Source: Porphyra umbilicalis
Lineage: Eukaryota > Rhodophyta > Bangiophyceae > Bangiales > Bangiaceae
NCBI GenBank assembly: GCA_002049455.2
Contig: KV918810.1
Coordinates: 186,001-250,000 of the forward strand
Length of the DNA stretch: 64,000 nt
Reading direction: 5' to 3'
Shown here: in pieces, positions 3,073-19,916 of the stretch
How positions within the stretch are numbered: the stretch's first letter is position 1
Layout of the letters: each line of letters opens with the position of its first letter
Translations under genes and position numbers: made by a program
Notes under the pieces: generated by a model
The model's database searches: none
What the model was told of the DNA's origin: nothing
The model's input: only the letters and a program-made list of their open reading frames with translations

Positions 3073-3420
3073 TATGGTGCGTGTCCCAAAAATGAGACAT
3101 GCGCGTTCTCTGAAGGACTGACACATCACTGCACGGGCGCAGGCGGCGTGGGGTACGAGAATATTCTCAACTGGCCTCCATGGAAAGAGCCTGTTCCGAC
3201 GCGTGCTTGGCTGACAACTCCATAATACCCGCCTGTGGGCCCTGTTCTGTGGACCTCTCAGATAGCCCCGATCTTGGAGCCAGTCTCTTTCAGGTTCTTG
3301 GGGTTAAAGGTTTGCAACGCCAAAGCTCATGTGCTATCTGGAGCTTCGATGAGGGGTGTCCTAAATCGTGTTTTCCTCACAGGGGGCTACATGGCGGTCT
3401 GTTTCACATTTTTATTGGTA
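3073..3420 (+). mobile_element. Family A element, left half
   Basis: This forward copy starts TATGGTGCGTGTCCC and follows the first half of the 58180 copy, through GATCTTGGAGCCAGTC and CTTCGATGAGGGGTG, up to ATTGGTA. There the next family A left terminus begins at the same TA. Nothing suggests coding capacity. Confidence 0.75.
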
Positions 3421-3975
3421 TGGTGCGTGTCCCAAGATTGAGACATGCGCGTTTTCTGAAGGACTGGCACATCACTGCACGCGTGGGATACGAAAAAGTT
3501 CTCGACTGGCCTCCATGGAAAGAGCCTCTTCCGACTCGTGCTTGGCCGACAACTCCTTAATCTCCGTCCAGCACCAGTTTTTCCCAACTGGTGCATCAAG
3601 AGGCTTTTTCCTCGTCCCCTGTGAAAAAAAATATGAACCGCCTCGGGAGAGTCTCACGAGCAAGCTCATGCTTTTCGCTTGCTCTGAAGGGTCTCCGTTT
3701 GTTGGTTGCAAAATGCCTGCAAAAAGGGGCCTGTACCAGATGCGCGTCTGGTCCGATCGCCTCTCCGACTCTCGCTGTCTTGCAGGCGCTTCACGCGAGA
3801 CTGCGCCATGTCAAAGATCGTGACCCTTCCATACATGCGCTGACAGCGGTCATTTGGCACACGCCTCTGTTCCCTCTTGCCTCCCTCTCCAAGCTATCCC
3901 TGCCAGGCTCAATCTCGTGCACGGGCGTGCAACCAGTCGCGCTGCCCAGCAGGCACACCCCCACCCCACAAGTGG

Positions 3976-5793
3976 CTACATCTGTCGCTGGCCCCCCACC
4001 CGTGCCGCTTCACTCGCCACCACCCACCACAGCAGACGAGGAGATACGGGGGGTTCGCGCAGTCGTGCGGCTGCCAGTCGCCGACGGTTTTTGGCTGCCA
4101 TTGGCAGAGCCAATCCCATCATCCGCAAACGACAGCCCGCCTCATGTGACGCTTCGCTTCCAATATCCACCCACGCCTCGCGACGCGTCTCCTCCTCCTT
4201 GGCTTCCACCTTTGCACGCTTGTTCTTTGCAGCTGCAGCGTCCTTAGTTTTCATGTCAGCCGCACGCTGGTCACGAGCCCGCATATTCGCCTGCTTGAGC
4301 ACCTTTGCGGCCACCTTTGCGGCCGCTGTCTCGTCCAGTGCTGTCATAATCTCAGGCGCCGTCAACACAGTTCCGCGGCCGGCCGTTGACAGCGTCCCAT
4401 TCACGACGACTGGACGCGACATATCCTTGCGCACGCGCGGGATTAGACGTTGTGTCAGCTTAGCGAGGTCCACGTCTTGAACGGGTGCGTCAGCGCCCTT
4501 GCTGAGCTTCGCCGCGCTCACCACCGTTTGGTCCAGAGGCCACATACCAACGCGTCGAAAAGCGGTGGTGAGGGCGTTCACAATCAGCGCCTCCGATGCC
4601 GCTCGCGCGATACACCGCATCAGCTCGGGGGTGTTCAAAGGTCGACCCGCCTCCCGGCACTCAAGAGCAATCTCCAGCACGCGCCGCCGGACCCTAGGCT
4701 GGTACCGACCAAAGGCACTGGGGTTGTCCAACGCTTTCAGAATGTGAGACATTTTCGACGGCTCGGCCACGACGTGGACCCAGGCCTTCAAAAGCGTAAG
4801 CAGCCCCGTTGTGGAAAGGTGCACCTTGGCGCCGTCCAGGGATAAAATCTTGTCCTCGTCGGGAAAGTAGGAACGCGCAAACTTGGCGAAAGTTGAAGCC
4901 CAAACGTCAAAGACCGCTTTATCCAAGCCGGGGGGGGAACGCCGCCAAACGACCGCTCCGTCATTGAGATAGGAGGATAGGGCCTGATCCGTCCTAGACC
5001 CGTCCGCCTTGGTCTCCGACACGTACGCGTGGCCAGGCGTTTGACCATCGACAACGGTAAAATGAGGCGCAACCACGCCGGCCGCGGACACGCAAAACGC
5101 CGCCGTGCACGCGCCCGCCCCCGACGCGAAAGAAGGCAAGATGACCTCGGGCTTGACCATGCCAACCCCCCCTAGGATGCCTTCTCGCCCGCTCATGGCC
5201 GACGTTCGGGCTTGGACGTGGGTCTCGTCCATGTTCCACACCTGCCGGGGGGATGTCACGCGATAGTCGCGATACAGCAGGGTGAGAATGGAAAACCAGC
5301 TGGCCACCACGTCGGGCCGCCCGTTCCTTGCACGGCCCTCCTCCAGTGTGCCAGCGCGGTACTTGCGCAGCTCGGGATGTCGCGACAGGAAGCATTTCAC
5401 CCAGCTGCGTCCAGGCTCCAGCGTGCCACCAAACAGCTTTCGAGCCGCCGCCTGGCGCTCTGCCGACAAATCAGCGAGATACTCGGCGCACACTCGGCAA
5501 ACCGCCTCTTGCGAGAGACCTCGTCCAATGGTCTCGTTGGTGATGATGCACTCGGCCAGCAATGCCTCCTCTGCAGCCGAGAAGAACGGTGCCGGGCCGC
5601 GCCTCTTCGCAACACCGCCAGTGTGGATGTAGAAGTGGGCGCGGTCGTACGACATGTTGAATCGCGACGCAAAAGATTCGACCGTCATACCGCCCGCCTT
5701 GACCGTCCGCATTGCCACCTGCATCGTCTCGTGATCAGCAGAACCGACGCCCGCCGTACCGGCCGACGGCGTGGTGGTGGCCTTGCGAGGCAT
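3976..5793 (-). CDS. Pogo/Tigger-type DDE_1 transposase
   Basis: The 605-aa protein starts at MPRKATT; the frame stays open further upstream but without protein-like sequence. Residues about 18-60 look like a pipsqueak-type helix-turn-helix, followed by a CENP-B-like second DNA-binding region (about 70-150). The DDE_1 core shows its catalytic acids as WNMDETH (D189), LSLDGAKVH (D320) and KALDNPSAFG (D356), the DDxD pattern of pogo transposases with 35 residues between the last two. A lysine- and alanine-rich tail follows from about residue 480. It would cut and paste the enclosing element at TA sites. The frame is intact, so the element could be active or only recently silenced. Confidence 0.88.
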   Translation of the reverse strand: MPRKATTTPSAGTAGVGSADHETMQVAMRTVKAGGMTVESFASRFNMSYDRAHFYIHTGGVAKRRGPAPFFSAAEEALLAECIITNETIGRGLSQEAVCRVCAEYLADLSAERQAAARKLFGGTLEPGRSWVKCFLSRHPELRKYRAGTLEEGRARNGRPDVVASWFSILTLLYRDYRVTSPRQVWNMDETHVQARTSAMSGREGILGGVGMVKPEVILPSFASGAGACTAAFCVSAAGVVAPHFTVVDGQTPGHAYVSETKADGSRTDQALSSYLNDGAVVWRRSPPGLDKAVFDVWASTFAKFARSYFPDEDKILSLDGAKVHLSTTGLLTLLKAWVHVVAEPSKMSHILKALDNPSAFGRYQPRVRRRVLEIALECREAGRPLNTPELMRCIARAASEALIVNALTTAFRRVGMWPLDQTVVSAAKLSKGADAPVQDVDLAKLTQRLIPRVRKDMSRPVVVNGTLSTAGRGTVLTAPEIMTALDETAAAKVAAKVLKQANMRARDQRAADMKTKDAAAAKNKRAKVEAKEEETRREAWVDIGSEASHEAGCRLRMMGLALPMAAKNRRRLAAARLREPPVSPRLLWWVVASEAARVGGQRQM

Positions 5794-6429
5794 CGTGGCA
5801 CGGCCAATGAAAAGGCAGGGAGAAAGGAGAGGTGGGAAGGGGGAAAAGTGCTCTAGAATGTGGACGTCGCAAGTGTGCACCCAGGATAGCCCCAGAGAGC
5901 CGTGAAGCGGTGCTTGACTCAGGGCGAGGAAGCTCACGTGCGCAGCGCGCGCAGTGAGGGTCGAAAGGGTGGCCGTGGTGGGCACACAGTCGGAAGCAGA
6001 CGGTGTTGCGGCCAAGAACTGCACCAGATGTGCCGCCTGAGGCGGTAGTTGAAAGTAATTTGGTTCACAAGAGCGCACCCTTTTTCCCTCTTGGACAGCC
6101 CTTTAGATTCGGGAGAGGGGACTTTTTGGCGGCTCGACAAACCGTTGGGGAGCCCTTAAGTTGGCGCGTATGGCGCTTCCCCCTTTTCTGATGGCGATCG
6201 CTTTTTTAGTTACAGTGAGGAGGGGTAGTCGCCTTTTTTTTTTTCTAGCCCAATTGACCAATGGCGTGCCTGGAGCGCTGGTCCGCCGTTGACTCAGCAG
6301 ACAGCTCGAACGCACGAGTTGGTGCAAGCCTCCATCACCAAATCCGCACCCTACAGGACCCGAATCTCCCATTTTCTCGCGCAGTGTCGTGCTCGCGCTC
6401 GTCCTCGTCGGCGCCGAAACAGTCGCGAC

Positions 6430-7370
6430 GTCCTCGTCGGCGGCAACGCGCTGGTGCTGGTGGTGTGCGGCAACGTGCTCGTGTTTGTGTCGGGCCTGTG
6501 CGTCGTCCTCGTCGGCAGCAGCGCGCTGGTGTTGGTGCACGGCAAGGCGCTCGTGCTCGTGTCGGGCTTGCGCGTCGTCCTCGTCGGCGGCGACGCGCTG
6601 GTGGTGGTGCACGTCAACGTGCTTGTGCTCGTGTGTGGCACGGACGGCGTCCACGTCGGGGGCGACGTGCTGGTGCTGGTGGTGCACGGCAAGGTGCTCG
6701 TGTTTGTGTCGGGCTTCCGCGTCGTCCTCGTCGGCGGCGACGCGGTGGTGGTGGTGCACGTGAACGTGCTCGTGCTCGTGTGCGGCACGGAAGGCGTCCA
6801 CGTCGGGGGCGACGTGCTGGTGCTGGTGGTGCACGGCAAGGTGCTCGTGTTTGTGTCGGGCTTCCGCGTCGTCCTCGTCGGCGGCGACGCGGTGGTGGTG
6901 GTGCACGTGAACGTGCTCGTGCTCGTGTGCGGCACGGACGGCGTCCACGTCGGGGGCGACGTGCTGGTGCTGGTGGTGCACGGCAAGGTGCTCGTGTTTG
7001 TGTCGGGCTTCCGCGTCGTCCTCGTCGGCGGCGACGCGGTGGTGGTGGTGCACGTGAACGTGCTCGTGCTCGTGTGCGGCACGGAAGGCGTCCACGTCGG
7101 GGGCGACGTGCTGGTGCTGGTGGTGCACGGCAAGGTGCTCGTGTTTGTGTCGGGCTTCCGCGTCGTCCTCGTCGGCGGCGACGCGGTGGTGGTGGTGCAC
7201 GTCAACGTGCTCGTGCTCGTGTGCGGCACGGACGGCGTCCACGTCGGGGGCGACGTGCTGGTGCTGGTGGTGCACGGCAAGGTGCTCGTGTTTGTGTCGG
7301 GCTTGCGCGTCGTCCTCGTCGGCGGCGACGCGGTGGTGGTTCACGACAACGTGCTCGTGCTCGTGTCGGG
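6430..7370. repeat. 147-bp tandem repeat array
   Basis: The landmark GTCGTCCTCGTCGGCGGCGA recurs at 6574, 6721, 6868, 7015, 7162 and 7309, each exactly 147 bp apart, with few substitutions and a degenerate lead-in from about 6430. Because 147 is divisible by three and the unit lacks stops in several frames, long open frames run through it on both strands. The plus strand gives valine-rich and the minus strand histidine-rich 49-residue repeats. I do not regard either as a demonstrated protein. One plus frame is continuous with the downstream transposase. Confidence 0.95.
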
Positions 7371-7386
7371 CAAGAAACGGGGCAGG

Positions 7387-8427
7387 ATGTATGTTTCGCC
7401 TCTACGGTATGCAGCATTGGCGATGGTGCACCACGGGGTTCCGAGGCAAACCATCACGGCTGTTATCGGAGTCCGTTCCGCACAACTTGAGCGGTGGCTA
7501 AGGTATTGGAGGAGGAGCGAAAGCGTGTGGCGAGTTCCAGAGCGGCAAAACCGTCACGAAGACTCCTGTTGGGAGGATGATACGCTGCTGCGAGCGATCA
7601 TCGCGCTGGTCCAGGAACATCCACTAGCACTGCTGAGAGAGCACACTGCCATGATGACGGCCATGCGTGCGCTGCCATCGGGGGAGTTTGCTCATTTGCG
7701 TGTTTCGAGGAGCACGGTGGACCGTGTGCTTCGACGGCTCGGCTTCACTCGGAAGGTCATCATCCGCTTGTATCGAGCGGCCAACCGGGAGCGTCGCCGT
7801 GAGCATGCTGTGCTACGTCAGATGGTCGGTAGCGGCTGCCTCGTATCCGTGGACGAAACCCATACGGACGGCCGTGACGTCCTCCGCAGGTACGGGCGGG
7901 CGCTGAGACAAGAGCGTGTTGACATGCTCGACATCAGCCCTCGGCACGTCGAGCGCGTGAGCACGACAATGGCGGTGTCGTCAGAAGGGCGCATCCTCGG
8001 CTTGCACTCGGTCACATGTGAGCGGGCTCTGACCAGTAACGACTGGCGCCTGTTCTTGGGCCGTGTCATTCAAAAGATGGGCCGGTACACACCTGGGGTC
8101 CCTTGGGACCTACAAGCCCCGGCCTGTGTCTTGCTTTTTGACAATGCGCCAATCCACGACGCTGCTGGCGACGCCTTCTTGGAGAACAATGGCATCCCGT
8201 TCATCCGTCTACCCCCCTACTCTCCCGACTTGCAGCCCATCGAGGGTGTGTTCAACGACTTGAAAGTCATCGTTCGGAACCTGGTGTACTTCAACCCTCA
8301 CTTCCTCGAAGACGGCGTTCGTTTGCAGGCGCTGGCGGCAAGCCTCATCACGCGACGACAGATAGTAGGGCAGTTTTCTAGAGTCGAAGTCAAACTGGCG
8401 CGTGTAGCGACCAGGCAGTGCTTCTAA
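7387..8427 (+). CDS. IS630/Tc1-type DDE_3 transposase
   Basis: The 346-aa protein begins at MYVSPLRYAA. The frame is open back to 6289 only because of the repeat array, and this Met precedes a normal IS630-like N-terminus. Residues 5-50 form a helix-turn-helix (VPRQTITAVIGVRSAQLERW), and a second helical DNA-binding segment spans about 65-125. The catalytic acids are D156 (SVDETH), D252 (LLFDNAPIH) and E286 (PPYSPDLQPIE), with 33 residues between the last two. The PPYSPDLQPIE block is diagnostic of this superfamily. It is the likely transposase of the 12-kb element, whose termini and TA targets fit. The frame is complete. Confidence 0.9.
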   Translation: MYVSPLRYAALAMVHHGVPRQTITAVIGVRSAQLERWLRYWRRSESVWRVPERQNRHEDSCWEDDTLLRAIIALVQEHPLALLREHTAMMTAMRALPSGEFAHLRVSRSTVDRVLRRLGFTRKVIIRLYRAANRERRREHAVLRQMVGSGCLVSVDETHTDGRDVLRRYGRALRQERVDMLDISPRHVERVSTTMAVSSEGRILGLHSVTCERALTSNDWRLFLGRVIQKMGRYTPGVPWDLQAPACVLLFDNAPIHDAAGDAFLENNGIPFIRLPPYSPDLQPIEGVFNDLKVIVRNLVYFNPHFLEDGVRLQALAASLITRRQIVGQFSRVEVKLARVATRQCF

Positions 8428-9976
8428 AGCTGATGACATCCTCCAAACTGGGATGACCTCGTCGAAACAGAAACGCAGACACCTCATGCACACGAACACG
8501 TCCTGTCAGGCGCGTCTTGGATGTGAAATCAATGCAGAATAGGGTGAGCCAGCGGATGCCTCTGGCACAAAAGCGGTACGGGTGGCGGCGCACTCCACCA
8601 TTCCCGAGTATGACTGCCCTGCAGCGTCTCCCGCCGGGCGCCTGCGAAGGAAATAGTGGTTGCCTTGTGCGACGCAACAGGTGCTCCCGGCGAAGCCTGC
8701 CATCTGAGACTTCGCCAAGGAGCTGCCGACGGTGGTGGGCGGAGCCTGCTGATGCATGCGAAAAACTTACATATGGCACTCTTTCGAAATAGAAATTCCC
8801 GCACCACCGACGCCGAAGCTTCGACTCGAAAGTCGAGTTTATTTCAACTCTTTGATATCGGTCAACGAAGAAGCTTATTCGAGATTGGTAGAAGTCGACG
8901 CTATCAGGATCCGTCGACAACATCTCTGCGTCCTTCGTTGCTGAAGGCAGCTTGAAGAGACATCGCTACATCATTTGGGCACCAGTGTCTTTGCATGGTA
9001 CACAGTCGGTGCTTCTTTCAGCTAGAAAAGAGACAGGACGCAGGATAAGCTGCAGTGCTGGCCATGTGGTGGCCGGTGCATCGGCAACTGGCCAGTGAGG
9101 TGCTTAGGAGCCGTTGTAGTGCATATTCGTGTCCTTCAGATGAACATGACCAACATGCTTTGGTTACATTGGCCGCGGAGACGAGGGATTACTCCCATGT
9201 CAGTGCCACGGTGACCTTTTCTGCTTCTCCTTGTAGAGGAGGTTCAGAGCGCGGGGTGGCTCTGATGCGCACCACATTGGTGGCCCTCTAGGTTCCCATC
9301 ACCCGAGAGGTCCCGGACATGGCAGCCCGGTCTGATGTTCGCTGCATTAGAAACGCGCGCCGTGCCAGCAGATATAATCGCTGCTCTAAGGTGTTCGTGT
9401 GTCTCTGGAAGCATAAATCTAGTTGGTGGAGCGGGTCGAGCGTGGCGCCGTGGGGGTCTGTGCAAACGCTATGACTCTGCCCGATGTTCGAAGCACCATC
9501 CGAGGTCCAGTGGCAGGAGATGCGCGCGCGACGCGCGGCGCGCCGCAAGGACTCTGGCAGCGTAGTAGTGACAGCGGAGCGCGGACTCCTGCCACAGATG
9601 CACCTCGGCAGTGAGACACTATAATAACTTCGTGACCTGAGCGCAGGGCAGGCACAGCGGGGTTGCCATCTCACAGCTGAGCGGCTGCCACCGAGTGCAA
9701 GCGAGTGCGTCAGCATTGCAACACAAACCACGACGCACGTACTGCCAGACAGTAAATACAACAGCTACGCCTTGCAATACTTGTCTCAGACGTTTCTCAT
9801 TGGTCCACGCCCCTATCTCGCAGAACACTCGGTCGCGGCATTGACGCGATTTGAGGAATCTATCGACGAAGTAATGAGGTCATGTCACCCACTGAGGTGC
9901 CTCGGGGGGAACCGGTCAGCTGTCGGCATCTCATGCTGACATCTCGCTGCGGTGGACGCCGTCTCGCCTCACCACC
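8428..9976. other. Spacer between transposase and E(z) gene
   Basis: There are short open frames on both strands, but none has recognisable domains, consistent codon use or obvious splice partners. A lower-GC patch lies at 8750-9000. I see no RNA gene or repeat here. Confidence 0.4.
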
Positions 9977-12900
9977 ATGGCGGCATTGCGCTGCGCCCCC
10001 GAGGACAACTTTGTGGAGGATTGGCCCAACGAGGAGGGGCCTTTGTCAGATGTGGACGCCGATGATGAAGCCGCAGACCTTGCGGCTGCCGCTGCTGGCG
10101 ACAATGTTATCCTGAAGCGCGTCATCCTTCGAATTTATGGACGAGCGGGGCGCCGCGCTCGCCAGCGCCGTCGCGCCGAAGGTCGCATCGCCATTGCTGT
10201 GAATCGTGCCGCGGCTACGCGCTACTTCCGTACCGCGGCGGCGGTGCCTGTTGGAGTTGGCTCCCGTCCCATTGAGCAATCGCCCACATCGTCTGCCGTG
10301 CCCGTGCGCGGTGCTGCCCCCCACGACGACATTGGTCGCTACGCTGTTGCTCCCGGTAATGCCCTGGCGTCAACAAGCGGCATTGGTGCAAGTGACTCTC
10401 GCGGGGACCTGTTGAGAAGGGGGGAGCTGGTTGGCGGAAGCCCTTGTGAGAAGAGCGGCCGCAGGAAAGAGGGACGTGTCGTGCAGCCCGACGACGGGGG
10501 GAGACGCGTTTCCCGCGAGGGTCAACGAACGATGTTTTATTACATGCGCTCCTCGCGGCAAGCGCGGGCGGCGCGGACGGGTGCTGCGTCGCTGCCGGAT
10601 GCGTGTGTGCACGAAAGAGGCACTGCGGACGCCTCTAGGCACGGCCATCCCGTCTTGTCCGCGACAGCTCCGCAGAGTGGCTCGATGACGCCATCTTTCT
10701 CTTCCGCAGCCGTGGAAGACCGTGTCCACGTAACGGTTTTGCCAGCAGCTGAGCGCCTCCCATCGGTGACGGCGTACACGTCATTGCGGCGGTCGTGGCG
10801 AAGGGTTGAGGGCGTGACTCCCGTCAAGTTCACTCCTTATCTGGGCCCTTCTGACGAGGCGCACGCGACGGCGGCAAAGATTATGTGCAAGAACGGGTGG
10901 GTGCCCCCCGAGTGGAACAGTGACGGGAGCGACGCGCCTGACCCGGACACTTATCATCACGACAATCAATACCGATCGCTCTCGTCGCAAACGTTTCGGC
11001 TGGCGCAGCGCGCGGGCGTGGCAGCTGTCGTCGATGCCTTGGGCGAGTCATCTGTGGTGGTGAGCGCCATGAGCAGCGCGTTAGGCGAGACCATCCCGTT
11101 CCTAACTCACGTCATCCACCTCATCCATCGCAGAGCGGCGGACCACCGTCGGGCTCATGCGCATCGAGCGGCGCACGCCACTCGCCGATCCGCGATCGAG
11201 CGCTTGACGGGCGGTGCGAGCCTCGCCGTCGTTCTCGGAGCTGGAGCTGTGAGGGAACAAGTCGTGTGTCCGCCGGCGGGTGAGTGTGTCCTTGAAGTCG
11301 GCGGCCTGGTGCATGAACATGTTCGAGCTGGTACAGCCACGGCTGTTGCATGCGCTGTGGCGGCAACGGCAGCTGGATCGGACGCGCTGGCTGCGGGACT
11401 TCCCCCCGCGAGTCGCGCTTGGGCAGCGCAGAACGCCGCACTTGTGAGAGGGTCGCACGCCGACAGCGACGCCCTGCGGGCCGATGCTGCTGCCTTGCGG
11501 TCCGTTCACGCTGTCCTCCGTGCTCCCGACGGCCCAAACAAGGCCACTCTCCTGCCGTGTATGGGCACTCTTTTCTCTGCAGACCATGTGGAGGAGCACG
11601 CCGGCGCTGACGCTCCCGACTCTCGGTCGGTGTCCCACTCGTACGCGTCACGGAGAGACGTCTTCATGCGTCTTTTGTGCCGAACGTGCCTGCGCTACGC
11701 TTGTCGCATCCACCGGATGCCCACGGTGGAGCCGCCGTCAACCGATTCACACGCCCTCGCGGACGCGGACCTGGCTGAAAGCCTCGTCCCCGGTGTGAGG
11801 AGCGGCTCTAAGAACACTGCCTCAGGAGGCGCCCTGCCACCTCCTCTGCCACTTCGCGGCTGCGTGGGCGTCGACGCGGCTGTTGCTGTCGCCCCGGTGG
11901 CGAAACACCCCGGGCACGTGCCACCTACTGTCAATGACGGTGAGGGCGAGGGTGCCGGCTCAGCATCTGATCATTCTTCCCCTGTGTCGGCGCGTTTGCC
12001 GGCAGAGTCGGTGTCGGCCGCACCGAGCACGTCTGTCAACGTGCTAGACGCAGAGCCTGGGGGTCTATCACTCGGGGAGTTCCACGCGGCGTCTTCCACG
12101 CTCCGCGAGCGAGCTCGCCATGGCAGGCTGCTCAGCTACAGTGGCAGTGAGGCGGAAGGTGTCGGGGCGGGCAGCGCTCTGTCTGCTGCTGTTCGTGATG
12201 GCCTGTATCGTGGCAGTAAGGGACTTCCAGCTGCAGCTGCCAACCTCAGTGGCGGTAGCAGTGGTGTTTTGGACCTGTTACGTGGAGGTCTGGACAGCCT
12301 TTCTGTCCATGACGGGGTCGAGGAGGTACCTGACAGCGATGTACCCGTATGCTCACGCCCCTCTACTCTGGATGCTCGCCGCGGACGTCACGCAAGGAAC
12401 CTGCATGCTGCCATTGCCTCGGCAGCCAGCGGGTGCCTCGAGTGTTGCCACGATGCCCGCGTGAAGGCTGCGATGACATATGAGAAGCCCACCATCGGTG
12501 GCTGGAGTGAAGGCCAGGTGGCGCTTCTTCATCTTGGTGCGGACATTTTTGGGGCAGACGACACCTGCCGCCTCGCCAGGTTTGTGCGTGGCAAGACGTG
12601 TCGCGGCATTGCTGACTTCATTTCAACGGGAGGGTGGAATGGGAGGGACGTGTCACTCCCGCAGCCCCCTGATCAAGATGTTGATGTGGAGGCCCCTGCA
12701 CGTGTTTGCCGCGCGCCCGTGGCAGCTCCCGGGGCCGCGGATGCGCACGTTTTGCAGCTGCCAGACTCGTCGCAGGCCTCGCCGCCGTTGTCGCTGGGCG
12801 AGTTGTCGTCATCTGGGAGAATTGCGAACGCCAGCAGTCAGGAGGACCCCGACGCGCCTGAGAAGGTGCACGACTTTGTGCCGTGCTTCCACATTGGTGC

Positions 12901-13747
12901 GTGCACCGTGGAGCGCTGCAGATGCGCAAAGGCCAACCTTTCGTGTGAGAGGTCATGCTGGTGTGCTCGTGGTTTTTTGAAAGAAGCGGGGGGGCCGGCG
13001 TCGTCCGGCGGCACCTCGTCGGCGCTCATCGAGGCCACACCCGCGTCGGAGTCGCGGCTCTGCGACCGCCATACGCGGTGCGCATGCGTGCCGCCGTCCC
13101 GGTGCGCGACGGACGAGTGCCCGTGCTTCGGCGTCGACAGGGAGTGCGACCCCGACGCTTGTGTCACGTGCGGTGCACACTGGCACCCAGACACTGGTGT
13201 CGACGGGCTGCCATCACCATCCGGTCATCCTCGCTCACGTGGTGGTGTGCCGCCTCTGCGTGGTGCTGGGCTCCTCACTGCAGCCGACGTAGCGAGCGGC
13301 GGCGTCGCTGCTGGAGAAGTGGCCGGACGGCGTCGCTGCCGGAATGTTCAGCTACAGATCGGTGCCCGAGTACGTTGCGTGCTTGGTCGCTCAGGAGCAC
13401 ACGGCTTTGGGGTCTTCGCTGCGGAGCCGGCGGCTGCCGGGGATTTCGTCGGTGAGTATGTCGGCGAGCTGGTTTCCAATGAGGAGGCACGTGCGCGGGG
13501 GCGCGTCTACGACGCTATGGGCGTCAGCTTCCTGTACTCCATCACGAAGACTGTTAACATCGATGCAAAGTACATGGGAAACCGGACGAAGTTCATCAAT
13601 CACCGCGGAAAGGAGCTCGCCAACGTTGAGGCGAAGCTGCTTAACGTAAGCGGTGAAATCAGAGTGGGATTGTTCGCCAAGACGTCGGTGACTCCTGGGG
13701 AGGAGCTCTTCTTCGATTACGGCTATGATGTGCCGGGGTGGGTGTGA
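9977..13747 (+). CDS. E(z): E(z)-like histone H3K27 methyltransferase (SANT-CXC-SET)
   Basis: This is an intronless 1256-aa protein starting in the good context CACCACCATGG. A cysteine-rich segment at about 555-580 (FMRLLCRTCLRYACRIH) resembles the pre-SANT region of EZH2. A SANT-type domain follows at about 835-885 (W..GQVALLHLGADIFG...LARFVRGKTC), then a double CXC domain at about 967-1071 with the E(z) signature CPCFGVDRECDPDACVTCGA, and a C-terminal SET domain at about 1130-1252 ending GEELFFDYGYD. This is the order of Polycomb group E(z), the catalytic subunit of PRC2, which methylates H3K27. The middle third is low-complexity. The usual NHSxxPNC cofactor motif is altered to NHRGKELANV, so activity is uncertain. 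It lies between two terminal inverted repeats and next to a transposase, which suggests a transposon-borne copy rather than the host gene. Confidence 0.87.
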   Translation: MAALRCAPEDNFVEDWPNEEGPLSDVDADDEAADLAAAAAGDNVILKRVILRIYGRAGRRARQRRRAEGRIAIAVNRAAATRYFRTAAAVPVGVGSRPIEQSPTSSAVPVRGAAPHDDIGRYAVAPGNALASTSGIGASDSRGDLLRRGELVGGSPCEKSGRRKEGRVVQPDDGGRRVSREGQRTMFYYMRSSRQARAARTGAASLPDACVHERGTADASRHGHPVLSATAPQSGSMTPSFSSAAVEDRVHVTVLPAAERLPSVTAYTSLRRSWRRVEGVTPVKFTPYLGPSDEAHATAAKIMCKNGWVPPEWNSDGSDAPDPDTYHHDNQYRSLSSQTFRLAQRAGVAAVVDALGESSVVVSAMSSALGETIPFLTHVIHLIHRRAADHRRAHAHRAAHATRRSAIERLTGGASLAVVLGAGAVREQVVCPPAGECVLEVGGLVHEHVRAGTATAVACAVAATAAGSDALAAGLPPASRAWAAQNAALVRGSHADSDALRADAAALRSVHAVLRAPDGPNKATLLPCMGTLFSADHVEEHAGADAPDSRSVSHSYASRRDVFMRLLCRTCLRYACRIHRMPTVEPPSTDSHALADADLAESLVPGVRSGSKNTASGGALPPPLPLRGCVGVDAAVAVAPVAKHPGHVPPTVNDGEGEGAGSASDHSSPVSARLPAESVSAAPSTSVNVLDAEPGGLSLGEFHAASSTLRERARHGRLLSYSGSEAEGVGAGSALSAAVRDGLYRGSKGLPAAAANLSGGSSGVLDLLRGGLDSLSVHDGVEEVPDSDVPVCSRPSTLDARRGRHARNLHAAIASAASGCLECCHDARVKAAMTYEKPTIGGWSEGQVALLHLGADIFGADDTCRLARFVRGKTCRGIADFISTGGWNGRDVSLPQPPDQDVDVEAPARVCRAPVAAPGAADAHVLQLPDSSQASPPLSLGELSSSGRIANASSQEDPDAPEKVHDFVPCFHIGACTVERCRCAKANLSCERSCWCARGFLKEAGGPASSGGTSSALIEATPASESRLCDRHTRCACVPPSRCATDECPCFGVDRECDPDACVTCGAHWHPDTGVDGLPSPSGHPRSRGGVPPLRGAGLLTAADVASGGVAAGEVAGRRRCRNVQLQIGARVRCVLGRSGAHGFGVFAAEPAAAGDFVGEYVGELVSNEEARARGRVYDAMGVSFLYSITKTVNIDAKYMGNRTKFINHRGKELANVEAKLLNVSGEIRVGLFAKTSVTPGEELFFDYGYDVPGWV

Positions 13748-13769
13748 GGACCCACTCGCCATCAAAGAC

Positions 13770-14310
13770 GGCGCGGCGGTCGGCCGCGTCGGCGACGACG
13801 TGCTCGGGTTGTTGTGGGACAAGGTCACGCACGGTGCGCGTGTCCTCGGTGGCGGCGACGAGGCCGTGGTGGTCTCGGCTCAAGGGCAAGCGCTCGTCTG
13901 CCTCAACGAACACGCCGTCGCCGAGACCGAACTGGACAATGTGGCGCGCAGCAAAAAGCGCCTGCTGGTGCTCGTGCTCCTGTACGGCAGCGAGGTCGCT
14001 GTCGTGAGCGGGGACATGCTTGCGGTGATGGTGCACGACGCGCGCGCGTTGGGGGGCGTGGACAAGTTCGCAGTCGTGAACAAGGTTGCAATAGCTGTCG
14101 TGAACAACGCCGCGGTCATGCCTTCCTCGCGGGCTTTCGTTGGGTTCGTGGCGCGTGACGGTTTGTGACAGCCATGTCATCCTCGTCGGCATCGAGTGTT
14201 GTCGTGTTGGTAGAGTCATCGAGTGTTGTCGTGTTGGTGTAGGTAACGGTTCTCATACTTGTGCCTGGCAACGAGGTTGTTGTTGTCGGCGGCGTCGCAG
14301 TGGTACTGGT
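13770..14310. repeat. Degenerate GTGCTCGTG-type repeat region
   Basis: Directly after the E(z) stop, the sequence is rich in GTCGTG, GTGCTCGTGCTC and GGCGGCGACGAGG motifs resembling a decayed form of the 147-bp array. It likewise gives valine-rich plus-strand and histidine-rich minus-strand open frames. At 14190-14245 a short unit, CATCGAGTGTTGTCGTGTTG, is repeated. No exact long period remains. Confidence 0.5.
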
Positions 14311-15627
14311 GGAAAGCAAAGGAGTTTTACTCTGACTGCTGGAACGGGTAGCTGCGTGGTGGACCAGGCAGTCAATGGGCCGTCGGCTCTTTTGAAGGGT
14401 GCAAGCGAAGGAAACAACTAGAGATGATATTTCCTCTCGCGCGCATCTGAAGCACATACAGCAGAGCAGTCAAGTACCACTGTCAATGACAGCAAGGGAA
14501 AGTGAGAGTCCTACCGAGCCACGCGCTTGCCCTTTCCTTTGTAGGCGTTGAACACATGAGCGATGAAGTCTTCAGCAGTGGAGTCCGGGCAGAGGCACAC
14601 CCGACACTCAAACCAAACACAAGCCCCGAGCGGGACCACCACGGCGTGAGGGGCGTGCAGCGACTGCGGGGCACCGCACGCCGCGGCCACGCGGCCACGC
14701 GTGCCACAGTGCGTGTGCGGTCATTGTGCCCACAGAAGAGCGGCGTAGAGCTCGACGCGCCACCGCTACCGGTGCAGGCAATAACTTGCCCCACGTCACG
14801 ATGATGAACGTCATTGCCGTCGCGGGCATGAACCTCGCAACAGACGGAGGCTCGCGCCACGCCCTCACAATCCCGTCAGTCAATACACGCGCCACAGTTT
14901 GCCCTTCTACGACTGCCAGCTGCAGACCACGTCAAGCCAGAGGAAAACCTTTCGTACGGAGTGGGATTTCAGATGCCTGGCGATGAAAGTGTTCGGCAGT
15001 GCCAACTATTGTTCAATATCGTTCGATGACATGCATCCTCGTGGTGCTGATGGCTCTGCCTTCGATCAACTGTTTTGGAAGGCTCTGTGGACATTGAAAG
15101 TGTTTCAAGAGACATGGCCTCTCCGTGCAGTGTGCGCCATGACCGGAAAAAGATCCCACCTTGACAGCTAATCTCGAAGTGTTTGATGTGACATTTGGTA
15201 TTGTCCGACGGGCAGTGAGGGACTTACGCGAATATGACCCAGTGTGCTTTTGGAATCGATCGACTTGGGACAGAGAGCACGTGTGGTGACCATCGACTTG
15301 GAGCATCCCCGCAGCAGCTGTGGTGCTGCCTCTTCCTTCTCGTGCCGATGAGACTTGCAGGCCCGTTAGGCGCGGGAGTCGCGTGGTGCCTGTGTCTCTC
15401 TGTCTATCATGCGGGCGTGTCCCTAGATCCCACAGGCGGTGGTGGTTTTGAGGTTGCTACGGGGCACTTGTTGCTGACTCCGTATGCCATCGACCGTGGT
15501 CGTACGCACGTCGTGCCTGAAGTGCACTCGCTGTCGCCGAGCTTTGTCGGGTGCACGAGTGGGTGGTGGAACAAGTGAGACACGAGGTCACCCAAACTAG
15601 CTGTGTATTCTAAAGAGTCAACCACCG
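14311..15627. other. Spacer between convergent genes of the 12-kb element
   Basis: This separates the 3' ends of the E(z) gene (+) and the zinc-protein gene (-). Short frames exist (for example 14899-15171 and 15234-15578 on +), but they lack recognisable features. No RNA gene or clear repeat is visible. Confidence 0.4.
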
Positions 15628-17100
15628 TCAAACGTGGGGTGGAACCTCGTCTACGTCAAAGGGTCCTTCTCCATCGGGACTGTCGTCTCCACTACCGTTC
15701 ACGCTGCTGGAACCACCCAAAACGTCACCGGGCCGCGACCGCTTGCGGGAGGGCCCTGCGTCCGCCACTGACACGACCGCGTCCTTGTGCATGTTCACCA
15801 TCCAGACAGCAAGCATCATCAACAAGTTCGTATGCGGCTTCTGCAGCCGCGTCGAGCACATCTGCTCAGCGAAGCGCGCCGGCGTCACGACACCGCACGT
15901 GAGCATTACACCCAGCAGCATGTTGTTATGAGCGCCATCGATGAAGTCCGCTTTCACCTCCGGCAACTTGGACGCCATGGCGTCGCCAAGAGAGCCCTTG
16001 TGCGCCGCCACTGCCAGCTCTTCGGATGTCATGCTGCTGAGCGAGGGCAGCTCGAATGCACCGAGGGACTCTTCGAAACGCTGGCGCTCGCCGGGTGGCC
16101 ACGCAAAGGGGCTCGCCGGTGCGTCGGACAACCGCGTCGCACTACCCGAGCCCGCGCCCGCAGTCGCGTTGGCAGTTCTTGACCCTGTCCGAGTCGAAAC
16201 AGACCCCGTCAATGAGAGGCGTCGAGCGGTGTCGAGGCCGGCTTGCGCCATTGACAAGTTGTTGGCGCCAAAGAGCGTCTGTGCGCTTACGACGGAGCTC
16301 CCTCGCGACGCATGCCCGCCGCGTGACGGCGGCGTCGCCTGACGTCCTGACGGTCGTCCGTCACCGGCAGCGGCGGCCGCAGTAGCAGACGGCGCGGCCC
16401 GAGCCGCTGCTCGAATGGCACCCGCCACGCCCTGCGCCGAGGGTACGCCCACCAACGGTCCCGTCGAAGAAGCAGCGCCCACCACCGACGAACGCGGCGA
16501 ACCGACGTACACACCGCAAGCACCCAAGGCTGCGTCCACAGCCGAAACCTTCGGGTCTTCCAGGAGACGCGAAGACTCGTTGAAATGCGTGCGGTTAGAT
16601 GGGTCCAGAGTAGCGGCCTTCATGCCCATCTCCTCCATTCGAGCCACGCTCGCCGCTGGGTCCATTCCCGACTGCGCCGCGTTGCCGACCAGCTCCTCCG
16701 CCGCACCAGTCAAGCGAGTAGACTCGTCTAACTTCTTCTTGTAGTGGGCGATGGCGGCAATGCGAAAGCCCTCGGCGTGTGCGTCGAGAATCAGGCTACA
16801 TACGTAGTCCGTGCCGCACAATGGCGGCGCGCTCTCCTTCCGCAGAATACTGCCACCAGTGCCGCTGCGGTAGTGCGTGCCGTTGACTGCGAGTGTCCGG
16901 TTTGAATGCCCCACGATGTCGCAAGATGGGCACTTCTCCTTACAAACGCACGCCAAGTCAGTACAATGTGTGGCATGGCGCTTGAAGGGATTACCGACGG
17001 GCAGCGTACGGCGACAAGGGAGTTTGCGCAGGTCACAAGACACCTGGCCATGACCGGTCTTGCCCTTTGAGTCGAAACCGCACAGGAGGCACCGAGTCAT
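15628..17100 (-). CDS. Zinc-binding protein of unknown function, transposon-borne
   Basis: A 490-aa protein; I chose the ATG that begins MTRCLLCGFDSKGKTG because the cysteine-rich domain starts there. The first about 90 residues hold many paired Cys and His (CLLC, CDLRKLPC, HATHC, CVCKEKCPSC, HSNR), suggesting two or more zinc knuckles and probably nucleic-acid binding. The middle is alanine/serine-rich. Residues about 370-450 form a more ordered, helix-rich segment, and a basic stretch SRKRSRPGD near the C-terminus could be a nuclear signal. I do not recognise the family. Its position inside the 12-kb element suggests an accessory transposition or regulatory protein. Confidence 0.65.
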   Translation of the reverse strand: MTRCLLCGFDSKGKTGHGQVSCDLRKLPCRRTLPVGNPFKRHATHCTDLACVCKEKCPSCDIVGHSNRTLAVNGTHYRSGTGGSILRKESAPPLCGTDYVCSLILDAHAEGFRIAAIAHYKKKLDESTRLTGAAEELVGNAAQSGMDPAASVARMEEMGMKAATLDPSNRTHFNESSRLLEDPKVSAVDAALGACGVYVGSPRSSVVGAASSTGPLVGVPSAQGVAGAIRAAARAAPSATAAAAAGDGRPSGRQATPPSRGGHASRGSSVVSAQTLFGANNLSMAQAGLDTARRLSLTGSVSTRTGSRTANATAGAGSGSATRLSDAPASPFAWPPGERQRFEESLGAFELPSLSSMTSEELAVAAHKGSLGDAMASKLPEVKADFIDGAHNNMLLGVMLTCGVVTPARFAEQMCSTRLQKPHTNLLMMLAVWMVNMHKDAVVSVADAGPSRKRSRPGDVLGGSSSVNGSGDDSPDGEGPFDVDEVPPHV

Positions 17101-17275
17101 GGTGTGTGCGACCCCCACTTCAAGCAGAGCACGCACGCGCTGAGGGAGACAGCACGATTGATTGGCCGACCGCAGCCGCGTGCTCAACGAAGGGTTCCTT
17201 GCCACCCACGACGACGACAACGTTGCCACCGACGGCCACGAGCTCCTTATCGCTCACGCCGATGACGACCACGAG

Positions 17276-17405
17276 CACGGGGACGAGCAGAAGGAGGGGA
17301 ACGAGGAAGAGCACAAAGAAGAGCACGAGGAAGAGGACGAGGAAGAGCACGAGGAAGAGCACGAGGAAGAGCACAAGGAAGAGCACAAGGAAGAGCACGA
17401 CGACG
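17276..17405. repeat. 12-bp GAAGAGCACRAG repeat array
   Basis: About ten imperfect copies of GAAGAGCACGAG or GAAGAGCACAAG read as EEHE/EEHK on the plus strand and as leucine/valine-rich sequence on the minus strand. The array lies upstream of the zinc-protein gene, within 1 kb of the right terminus of the 12-kb element. It mirrors the left array, which also carries CTCGTGCTC motifs in the opposite orientation. Confidence 0.85.
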
Positions 17406-18639
17406 AGCGCACGCACGAGCGCCGCGCCGTACACAGCGACCGCCACCTCGTTGCCAAGGACGACGATCGCCTTGCGCCTTACGGCCGACCGAAACGAGCC
17501 CGAGCGCGAGCACGACGACGAGCGCACGCACGAGCGCCACGAGAACAAGCTGGGAAGTGAAGTGCCTGCAAGGCGACTTCACGAAAAAGAGCGCGTATGA
17601 CAACAGACCCCTGGTGCAGCCCTGCTGCTCGTCGCGAGACGCGGTGGAGGGGCGTCCTGCAAGAACACCCCCCGTCTGAGGCATCCGCACAGGACCGGTC
17701 TGCTGACCGTGGCGGGCGACGGGAGAACTGCCCGGCTGCAGCGATCCACACAGGTGGGGGCAAGAGCCGTCGCTGAGGAATGACCTCCTTGCCCGAACGT
17801 TCCGGGGTGCCAGATGCCCAATGAGGGCGTTCAGGTCAGCACAGAAACGAGGAGGCCATGTGAGCTTCTGAGCTTTTTTCGGATGAGGCCCCGATTGAGC
17901 ACACATTGTAGGACGTCGGTTTAGCAGCACCTGCCTCTGGAACACCGCAGGGGGATGCGTGAAAAAAATCCGAGTACCGACTAGGGAAGAACTAAGCTTA
18001 TTTCAGATGGCGGTTGACAGCGGCTCTCAGCGCACCCCAAATTGAAGCACCGGACCCCCAGAGTCGCTCCAATCGGCGCATTTTCTCGTGACTGGCTCAA
18101 AAATTAAATACTTTGCCACACGAGTGCAGCAAAAAGCTGCAGAAGCCCAGCCCAGAGCGTCTCCGATCGCCCCCCGCTGGCCTCCTGGGAGGGGTAAAAA
18201 AAAAACTGGTGCCAGAAGCTCAAGGTGTCCCATCAGAAAAGGGGGAAGCGCCATACAGGGGTGCGCGGCGCTGTTGCATTTTTTGGTGAAATTAAAAAAT
18301 CCTCCAAACGCAGTGCGTGCCCTTTGTTGGGGGTCCCAAGAATCGATTTTTCTATGTAAACACTGTGAATCTCCCACACAAGCCGATATTGGGAAGAACT
18401 GATCCAGTCGGGAAAAACTGGTGCTGGACGGATACCCCCGATCTTGGAGCCAGTCTTTTTCCGGTTCTTGGGGTTACAGATTTGCAACGCCTAAGCTCAT
18501 GTGCTAACTGGAGCTTCGATGAGAGGTGTCCCAAATCGTATTTTCTTCACAGGGGGGCTACATGAAGGTCTTTTTCACGTTTTTATTGGTAAGGTGGTGC
18601 CATTTTCTTCGTGCACAAACTGTCAGCACATGCCTGCTC

Positions 18640-19306: not shown

Positions 19307-19538
19307 GTATCCGTGCATTTGATTGGGGGGCGTGATCGTCACTTGTCGAAGCTGCAATGAATGATACTTCCCTCCATGACATTTGAGGATGTGCCGCCTC
19401 TGCTAACAGTGTCAGGCGCCGTTCTGGCAACGCAGAGGGTCCGAGTCGGTCACATTACAACATCGGACCGCTGCAGAAGGCCAGTGGGCCGAGAAAAAAA
19501 GAAAAAACCGCGATGTCTCATTTTTGGGACACGCACTA

Positions 19539-19916
19539 TAACTGGAGCTTCGATGAGGGGTGTCGCAAATCGTGTTCTCCTCACAGGGGGCTACATGAAG
19601 GTCTTTTTCAGGTTTTTATTAGTAAAGTGGTGCCCTTTTCTTCGTGCACAAATTGTCAGCACATGCCTGCTCTAGTATCTGTGCATTTGATTGGGCCGCG
19701 TGATCGTCACCTGTCGAAGTTGCAATGAATGACACTTTCCCCCATGACACGTCAGGATGTGCCGCCTCTGCTAACACTGTCAGGGGCATTTCTGGAAGCA
19801 CAATCGGACCGAGTGGGTCACATTACATTATCGGACCGTTGCAAAGGCCAGTGGGCCGAGAAAAAAAGACAAAACCGCCATGTCTCATTTTGGGACACGC
19901 ACCATAGTAGGCTACA
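19539..19916 (+). mobile_element. Family A element, right half
   Basis: Starting at the TA shared with the previous copy, the sequence follows family A from ACTGGAGCTTCGATGAGG to the inverted terminus GGGACACGCACCATA at 19916. The left half is missing. This gives a head-to-tail junction at a TA. Confidence 0.75.

Follow-up and report, generated by a model that had tools for sequence, protein, structure and literature searches.

DNA transposons of the IS630/Tc1/mariner kind are usually a few kilobases (kb) long; among other mobile elements, the Harbinger group relies on a Harbinger transposase and the giant Starship elements on a tyrosine-recombinase captain. Here we describe an element at positions 6169-18255 of a 64,000-nucleotide stretch of the genome of the red alga Porphyra umbilicalis (contig KV918810.1, here C50, positions 186001-250000, in an assembly of 83.8 Mb and 665 contigs; this whole stretch is hereafter the window). 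It shares with IS630/Tc1/mariner elements a DDE_3 transposase with a D-D-E triad, a TA target site and short inverted ends, but it and its relatives measure 12-44 kb and carry a gene for an E(z)-like protein, a cysteine-rich gene and, in relatives, SUZ12. The DDE_3 transposase and the TA site, in place of a Harbinger transposase and a three-base duplication, set it apart from Harbinger elements. It does not resemble a Starship either, since its mobilizing gene is the DDE_3 transposase and the three element open reading frames (ORFs) scanned gave no recombinase match. With the core of Polycomb repressive complex 2 (PRC2), that is, E(z)/EZH2, SUZ12 and EED, it has in common the CXC-SET part of E(z) and, in relatives, the VEFS box of SUZ12, but here these are encoded by a mobile element and no EED was seen.

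Enzymes that modify DNA or chromatin have been met in mobile elements before. The HarbingerS and MuDR elements of Phytophthora encode a histone methyltransferase of the SET type (Kojima and Jurka 2014, cited in PMC12730594) and thus also place a SET gene in a DNA transposon, but they belong to other transposase superfamilies, and the comparison is with a description that mentions no SUZ12 and leaves the kind of SET unstated. Harbinger elements have a three-base target site (PMC12477816). Fungal DNA transposons carry TET/JBP dioxygenases, and the gene has been transferred between transposon lineages (PMC12730594); the epigenetic enzyme and its transfer are alike, whereas the mark is on DNA and the transposons are of other kinds. 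Sola1-1 of Ectocarpus, which encodes a ParB-DNA methyltransferase protein (PMC12477816), resembles the present element in being a giant DNA transposon of an alga and in bearing an accessory gene with an epigenetic role, but the enzyme is a DNA methyltransferase and the transposase is of the Sola type. Dinoflagellate and charophyte elements that bring their own modifying enzymes, cytosine methyltransferases, are retrotransposons acting through DNA methylation (PMC5890265). The reverse link between a transposon protein and PRC2 is known from Arabidopsis, where the host has recruited two domesticated transposases, ALP1 and ALP2, into the complex (PMC4671723, PMC7282668). In a number of unicellular lineages PRC2 marks transposons or represses them, and an ancestral PRC2 role in transposon repression has been proposed (PMC8788455). 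In a review of giant transposons (PMC6431247) the words histone, SET domain and mariner are absent, and in the literature searched, which comprised titles and abstract openings with most subscription journals outside it, we met no E(z) or SUZ12 gene within a transposon. Transposons with an epigenetic enzyme are already known, and a set of E(z) and SUZ12 in a giant Tc1/mariner-type element is, as far as we have seen, new. The original prediction, which was made from the letters of the window alone, knew of no standard transposon family with this gene set; SET-bearing DNA transposons are, however, in print (PMC12730594), and the SUZ12 of related elements lay beyond the view of that prediction.

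The element, its ends and its copies

The stretch 6169-18255 is a 12,087-bp insertion with 24-bp arms that are 100% complementary and lie directly inside TA, as had been read from the sequence (an inverted-repeat search gives 27 nt for the termini, part of the TA and an outside G/C pair being included). Its features, and the ORF next to it, are as follows.

6169..6194, plus strand: left terminus, TA and the 24-bp terminal inverted repeat (TATGGCGCTTCCCCCTTTTCTGATGG); 14 exact places genome-wide, none with the reversed pattern
6424..7366, no strand: subterminal tandem array near the left end, 147-bp unit, 6.4 copies
7387..8427, plus strand: IS630/Tc1/mariner-type transposase, 346 amino acids; DDE_3 (Pfam) E 2.9e-15, 56.8 bits, cut-off 28.6
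9977..13747, plus strand: E(z)-like protein, 1256 amino acids; Pfam SET and CXC, PDB EZH2/EZH1
14483..14875, minus strand: possible remnant of the C2H2-type zinc-finger gene of subfamily B (translations alike by eye)
15628..17100, minus strand: cysteine-rich (zinc-type) protein, 490 amino acids; in six of six copies, frame-broken in that of contig C115
17273..17408, no strand: tandem array near the right end, 12-bp unit
18230..18255, minus strand: right terminus, the same inverted repeat and TA, an inverted copy of the left end
3976..5793, minus strand: ORF of the interrupted surrounding repeat, not the element's own

A chance inverted repeat was rejected as the source of the termini: none of ten first-order Markov controls held an inverted pair of 24-mers more than 5 kb apart, against 104 such hits in the real window, mostly from other repeats. 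Genome-wide, the 26-base end is found at 19 places with three or fewer mismatches (reversed control, zero), and 12 of the 14 exact ends form six convergent pairs of 11.8-25.5 kb (C21, 22.0 kb; C41, 25.5 kb; C50, the window copy, 12.1 kb; C115, 18.4 kb; C138, 21.8 kb; C179, 11.8 kb), with one exact end each on C14 and C253. All six copies have TA at both ends (the TA was included in the search pattern) and differ in their flanks, and all six hold the trio of transposase, E(z) and cysteine-rich genes in like order and orientation. Two subfamilies can be recognized. Subfamily A comprises the window copy and C179, which are 99% identical over 11.5 kb; in subfamily B (C21, C41, C115 and C138) large blocks are mostly 96-98% identical, and A and B align in blocks of 73-91%, both ranges being among the matches listed. 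Subfamily B has an extra stretch with a C2H2-type zinc-finger ORF, of 349 amino acids in C138 and C21 (zf-met E 6.7e-05 in C138).

Sites without the element support the same boundaries. With both flanks joined at a single TA (335 nt) as query, the genome gave 40 matches, namely the two halves in the window, three uninterrupted matches of full or nearly full length (C131:146667-147001, 92%; C4:444088-444425, 85%; C137:133786-134101, 85%), seven that span the junction with 70-71% identity over about 230 nt, and 28 short ones ending before it. The three uninterrupted matches represent further copies of the surrounding repeat in which the site is empty. For the C41 copy, an empty site of a second kind occurs in the window itself, where its flanks TTATTGG and AGGTGG meet without interruption at the TA of position 18590. 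The expectation that the surrounding repeat would read through without the block was borne out by the joined flanks, but no reading frame is split: the ORF of that repeat is open from stop to stop at 3976-6102 with a likely ATG at 5793, and the insertion lies beyond this open stretch, about 375 bp upstream of the ATG, and so divides no protein. Thus, 6169-18255 is almost certainly a giant DNA transposon of the IS630/Tc1/mariner kind, complete and inserted at TA.

The transposase, E(z)-like and cysteine-rich ORFs of the window copy are all open, with no internal stops; the predicted intact transposase, novel zinc protein and repeat arrays near both ends were all found. The putative catalytic triad of the transposase, picked by eye, is D156-D252-E286, with 33 residues between the last two. 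The protein scores 93.1 bits with the NCBIfam IS630 model, below the cut-off of 100, and matches Sleeping Beauty weakly in PDB (E 0.083); it alone gave PHROGs matches, two and both weak. The cysteine-rich protein has no match in Pfam, NCBIfam or PHROGs and no convincing relative in PDB (best E 0.029). Scans of viral contigs with the three element proteins returned 2, 1 and 3 pattern matches, none of which was confirmed.

By eye, several copies lie inside other repeats: the window copy, that of C41, and those of C179 and C261 (the last a more distant relative described below), which are in copies of one other repeat. The C138 and C41 copies have the same left flank (TTATTGG-TA) and different right flanks. 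Certain repeats are perhaps preferred targets, since different elements (C179 and C261; C41 and C138) sit in copies of the same repeat families.

A superfamily carrying Polycomb genes

A broader end motif, TATGGCRCWTCYCC, has 49 matches per strand in the genome and none in the reversed control, and all 26 pairs of neighbouring ends that lie within 50 kb on one contig are convergent. Nineteen of these pairs exceed 10 kb, and 16 of the 19 contain a single match each for the transposase, E(z) and the cysteine-rich gene; the chance of so many with E(z) under uniform placement is about 2e-22. The search proposed with the original prediction, for further paired ends between which the three genes travel together, therefore succeeded both with the exact end (six of six) and with the broader motif (16 of 19). 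The three remaining large pairs hold a transposase and a cysteine-rich match (C193), a transposase alone (C135) or none of the three (C13). These counts rest on position sets that comprise all 113 of 113 transposase rows and all 26 of 26 VEFS rows, 90 E(z) places after the split pieces of 111 rows were merged, and 80 cysteine-rich places from 113 rows.

The second PRC2 gene is represented by the SUZ12 VEFS box (PF09733), with 26 above-cut-off matches in the genome and none in 14 control genomes, a weak control because the named control genomes are prokaryotes. An E(z) match lies within 25 kb of 24 of the 26 VEFS places; the lone ones are on C6, a candidate for the host SUZ12, and C478. Ten of the 16 large trio elements have a VEFS match, and the six without it are the window family. 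In related giant elements the VEFS box accompanies E(z) (C57, C86, C23, C79, C174, C184, C206, C219, C266, C346 and C261). The zinc-finger model Zn_SUZ12 gave 11 matches, ten of them beside a VEFS match, although all but one are below the cut-off and the Bacillus subtilis control also has a below-cut-off match. Two elements illustrate the arrangement.

C57, 266835-287477 (20.6 kb, ends TATGGCACTTCCCCAAA...): cysteine-rich gene, E(z) in two ORFs, VEFS protein, transposase
C261, 53519 to about 77227: cysteine-rich gene, E(z), VEFS ORF, SUZ12 zinc-finger ORF, C2H2-type ORF, transposase

The first E(z) ORF of C57 has no Pfam match and the second matches over CXC-SET at 52%. In C261 the SET and CXC of E(z) are both above their cut-offs and the SUZ12 zinc finger is below its own; a single-sequence search of PDB with the VEFS ORF yielded no match (best E 0.32), though the Pfam match of this ORF is above cut-off. 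The window element belongs to a superfamily of giant DNA transposons, up to 44 kb long, that carry PRC2 subunits.

Some minor observations concern the same sequences. In the SUZ12 zinc-finger ORF of C261 (L041:392-1609, minus strand), a long N-terminal region is unmatched in Pfam. Seven pairs of broader-motif ends are short, 3.4-4.8 kb (C12, C33:333333, C44, C56, C263, C524 and C19:117449-121152); that on C19 has transposase and cysteine-rich matches and the other six have neither. With their common end motif, these pairs might represent short forms that are either non-autonomous or ancestral. Scattered over C4, C11, C22, C69, C101, C193, C246, C343 and C590 are single ORFs with WD40 repeats, about 1,530-1,830 amino acids in length, which perhaps belong to one repeat or gene family.

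The E(z)-like protein and its possible use to the element

The E(z)-like gene of the window has a SANT-like stretch at about 12455-12685, CXC at about 13079-13177 and SET at about 13403-13723. Pfam detects SET with E 5.9e-17 and CXC with 23.2 bits, just below the cut-off of 23.3, whereas the CXC of the C261 relative reaches 31.5 bits; MCSS is at 16.4 bits, below its cut-off of 27. The best PDB matches are EZH2 and EZH1 (best E 1.7e-31), whereas the highest-ranking SET protein that is not an E(z) has E 8.6e-15. The initial description of a SANT-CXC-SET protein of E(z) type is thus upheld in its SET domain, its nearness to EZH2 and, at the margin, its CXC, but the SANT part gave zero Pfam matches and weak PDB alignments. 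A bacterial SET effector model of NCBIfam also touches the SET region, at 34.6 bits against a cut-off of 550, and was set aside as reflecting the common SET fold. In the EZH2 alignment the protein retains the EY.GE, DA, F.NH and FFDY positions, which we take to be important in EZH2.

Between subfamilies A (C50) and B (C21 and C41), synonymous divergence (dS) is 0.57-0.65 in all three genes, and the ratio of nonsynonymous to synonymous divergence (dN/dS) by the NG86 method is 0.05-0.07 for the transposase, 0.15-0.16 for the cysteine-rich gene and 0.32-0.34 for E(z) (by YN00, 0.05-0.06, 0.16-0.19 and 0.36-0.37). A passenger gene would drift towards a ratio of 1; E(z) is therefore a recurrent element gene kept by selection and not a one-copy passenger. 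Within E(z), the ratio between A and B is 0.09 at the SET end, 0.19-0.21 in the SANT-like stretch and 0.24-0.52 in the remainder, with 0.33-0.39 over the N-terminal 560 residues. That the SET end is under the strongest constraint argues for enzyme activity over a mere decoy.

On balance, we favor the hypothesis that an active methyltransferase sets or exploits repressive chromatin for the element, and from its sequence the E(z)-like protein is itself probably an active enzyme. Copies would have moved recently, as the 99% identity of C50 and C179 implies, with the transposase cutting and pasting at TA. The E(z)-like protein would then act as an enzyme, for which in the window subfamily SUZ12 might come from the host or from relatives in trans, and would put a repressive methyl mark, probably on histone H3 lysine 27 (H3K27), on chromatin at or around the copies; the cysteine-rich protein perhaps steers this methylation. 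The element would so govern its own silencing state and land in already silenced, repeat-rich DNA at little cost to the host. This last benefit, control of its own silencing together with settlement in silenced repeats, we put forward only tentatively. A transposon that carries an enzyme of the defence against it, and often SUZ12 as well, inverts the usual question: is the mark a means of concealment, a way of jamming the host or a guide to a landing site? The presence in one small genome of many copies, intact and broken, with and without SUZ12, makes these choices directly testable, and such parasites may bring part of the gene-silencing machinery along with them.

Several observations weigh against the favored hypothesis. 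In three of the 19 large pairs no E(z) was detected. An EED-like WD40 gene was found in none of the 19 large pairs nor in C261 (among the 91 best matches, with 150 of 380 candidates scored, so that weak WD40 repeats could have escaped notice), and VEFS matches are absent from the window family; a full PRC2 is therefore not self-supplied. The NHS of EZH2 is replaced by NHR in subfamilies A and B, and its PN by AN in the window copy, changes that could alter activity; the E(z) of C57 and C261 retain NHS. The substitution rates were computed solely within and between subfamilies A and B. In these the CXC-holding stretch is just moderately constrained (0.35) and the MCSS-like stretch least (0.51-0.52), and between the two A copies dN/dS of E(z) is near 1 (dN 0.0065, dS 0.0061), as expected after insertion and uninformative on function. 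There is one stop in the E(z) of C179, one each in the E(z) and transposase of C138, and the cysteine-rich gene of C115 is frame-broken; the functions can therefore be lost in single copies.

The alternative that survives best, though we regard it as doubtful, is that the element-borne E(z), with SUZ12 in relatives, titrates or poisons the PRC2 of the host, so that the genes of the element escape Polycomb silencing. H3K27 trimethylation targets transposons in several unicellular species including a red alga, and loss of PRC2 reactivates them in some of these species (PMC8788455), while the TET/JBP genes of fungal transposons have been read as anti-silencing (PMC12730594). The elements have E(z) and often SUZ12, with no EED seen among those 91 WD40 matches, and the change of NHS to NHR in subfamilies A and B could impair catalysis. 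However, purifying selection peaks on the SET end (0.09) and not on the N-terminal part expected to bind partners (0.33-0.39).

We consider it unlikely that the module serves mainly to guide insertion, with E(z) and SUZ12 binding the transposase or the cysteine-rich protein and steering it to Polycomb chromatin, and methylation secondary. Several copies are indeed located in other repeats, and in Gypsy elements, which carry chromatin readers in Ectocarpus, such domains go with targeted insertion (PMC12477816), but a reader domain would suffice for this purpose, yet it is the catalytic SET end that is best conserved. It is very unlikely that a large element captured E(z), SUZ12 and the cysteine-rich gene from the host by accident: extra genes, mostly of unknown function, are indeed borne by many of the giant DNA transposons in Ectocarpus (PMC12477816), but here the trio occurs in 16 of the 19 large pairs and is under purifying selection between diverged subfamilies, and E(z) is retained in several diverged lineages. 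Finally, the notion of two separate short elements with like ends around an ordinary host E(z) locus, for which no support was found beyond the existence of the seven short pairs, is refuted by the trio between like ends in six of six copies, by the convergence of all 26 neighbouring ends with E(z) found between them at many places, and by the three empty sites.

Cassette exchange, host E(z) and the neighborhood

The genes of the window element have different nearest relatives. With close A/B-like relatives set aside (C14, C61, C144, C19, C2:215120 and C5:589906, at 78-89% by transposase), its transposase is nearest the C57 type (73-76%), compared with 51-60% to the types of lineage 2 and of the SUZ12-bearing elements. 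Its CXC-SET region, by contrast, is nearest lineage 2 (69-77%; C482, C5, C187 and others), whose elements have all three genes on the same strand, and only 45-52% identical to the C57 type; the E(z) of C57 is at 50-58% to A/B, lineage 2 and C261. Because transposase and CXC-SET point to different lineages, these values suggest that E(z) may have passed from one element lineage to another and that the window family may have lost SUZ12, although they are percent identities and not a tree, and a fast rate in the E(z) of C57 could contribute.

Most E(z)-like places in the genome are close to the superfamily: 80 of the 90 lie within 40 kb of one of its transposase or cysteine-rich matches, for which uniform placement gives about 10% and 7%. 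Among the 90 we identified no clear host E(z), with C352 alone inspected of the ten outliers and with the reservation that an intron-bearing or more diverged E(z) may be missed. C352 was rejected as the host gene, since by eye its translation terminates, like SET1-type enzymes, in a post-SET motif; the list of E(z)-like places thus includes at least one other SET gene. A more sweeping proposal is that a cut-and-paste superfamily with a mobile PRC2 module, E(z) and SUZ12 with swapped cassettes, multiplied until most or all E(z) in this alga became transposon-borne. We think this improbable; if true, the Polycomb silencing of the host would be supplied or shaped by its own parasites. Elsewhere in the assembly, contig C665 (at least 170 kb) resembles a plastid genome and holds ten of 11 phycobilisome-family matches, which points to a red algal host.

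The window has 65% GC, and Rfam and tRNA scans of it gave no matches. The neighboring ORF at 3976-6102 has no Pfam or NCBIfam match, and the name pogo for the surrounding repeat is a label of the original prediction only. A 23-bp inverted pair at 3563-3585 and 18410-18432 may mark the ends of this repeat. Around it are nested inverted copies of an end like TATGGTGCGTGTCCCAA.A.TGAGACATGCGC, at 3077-3100, 3419-3435, 19513-19536 and 19888-19906; because these nested ends begin with TATGG, like those of the element itself, several TA-inserting families may be stacked around it.

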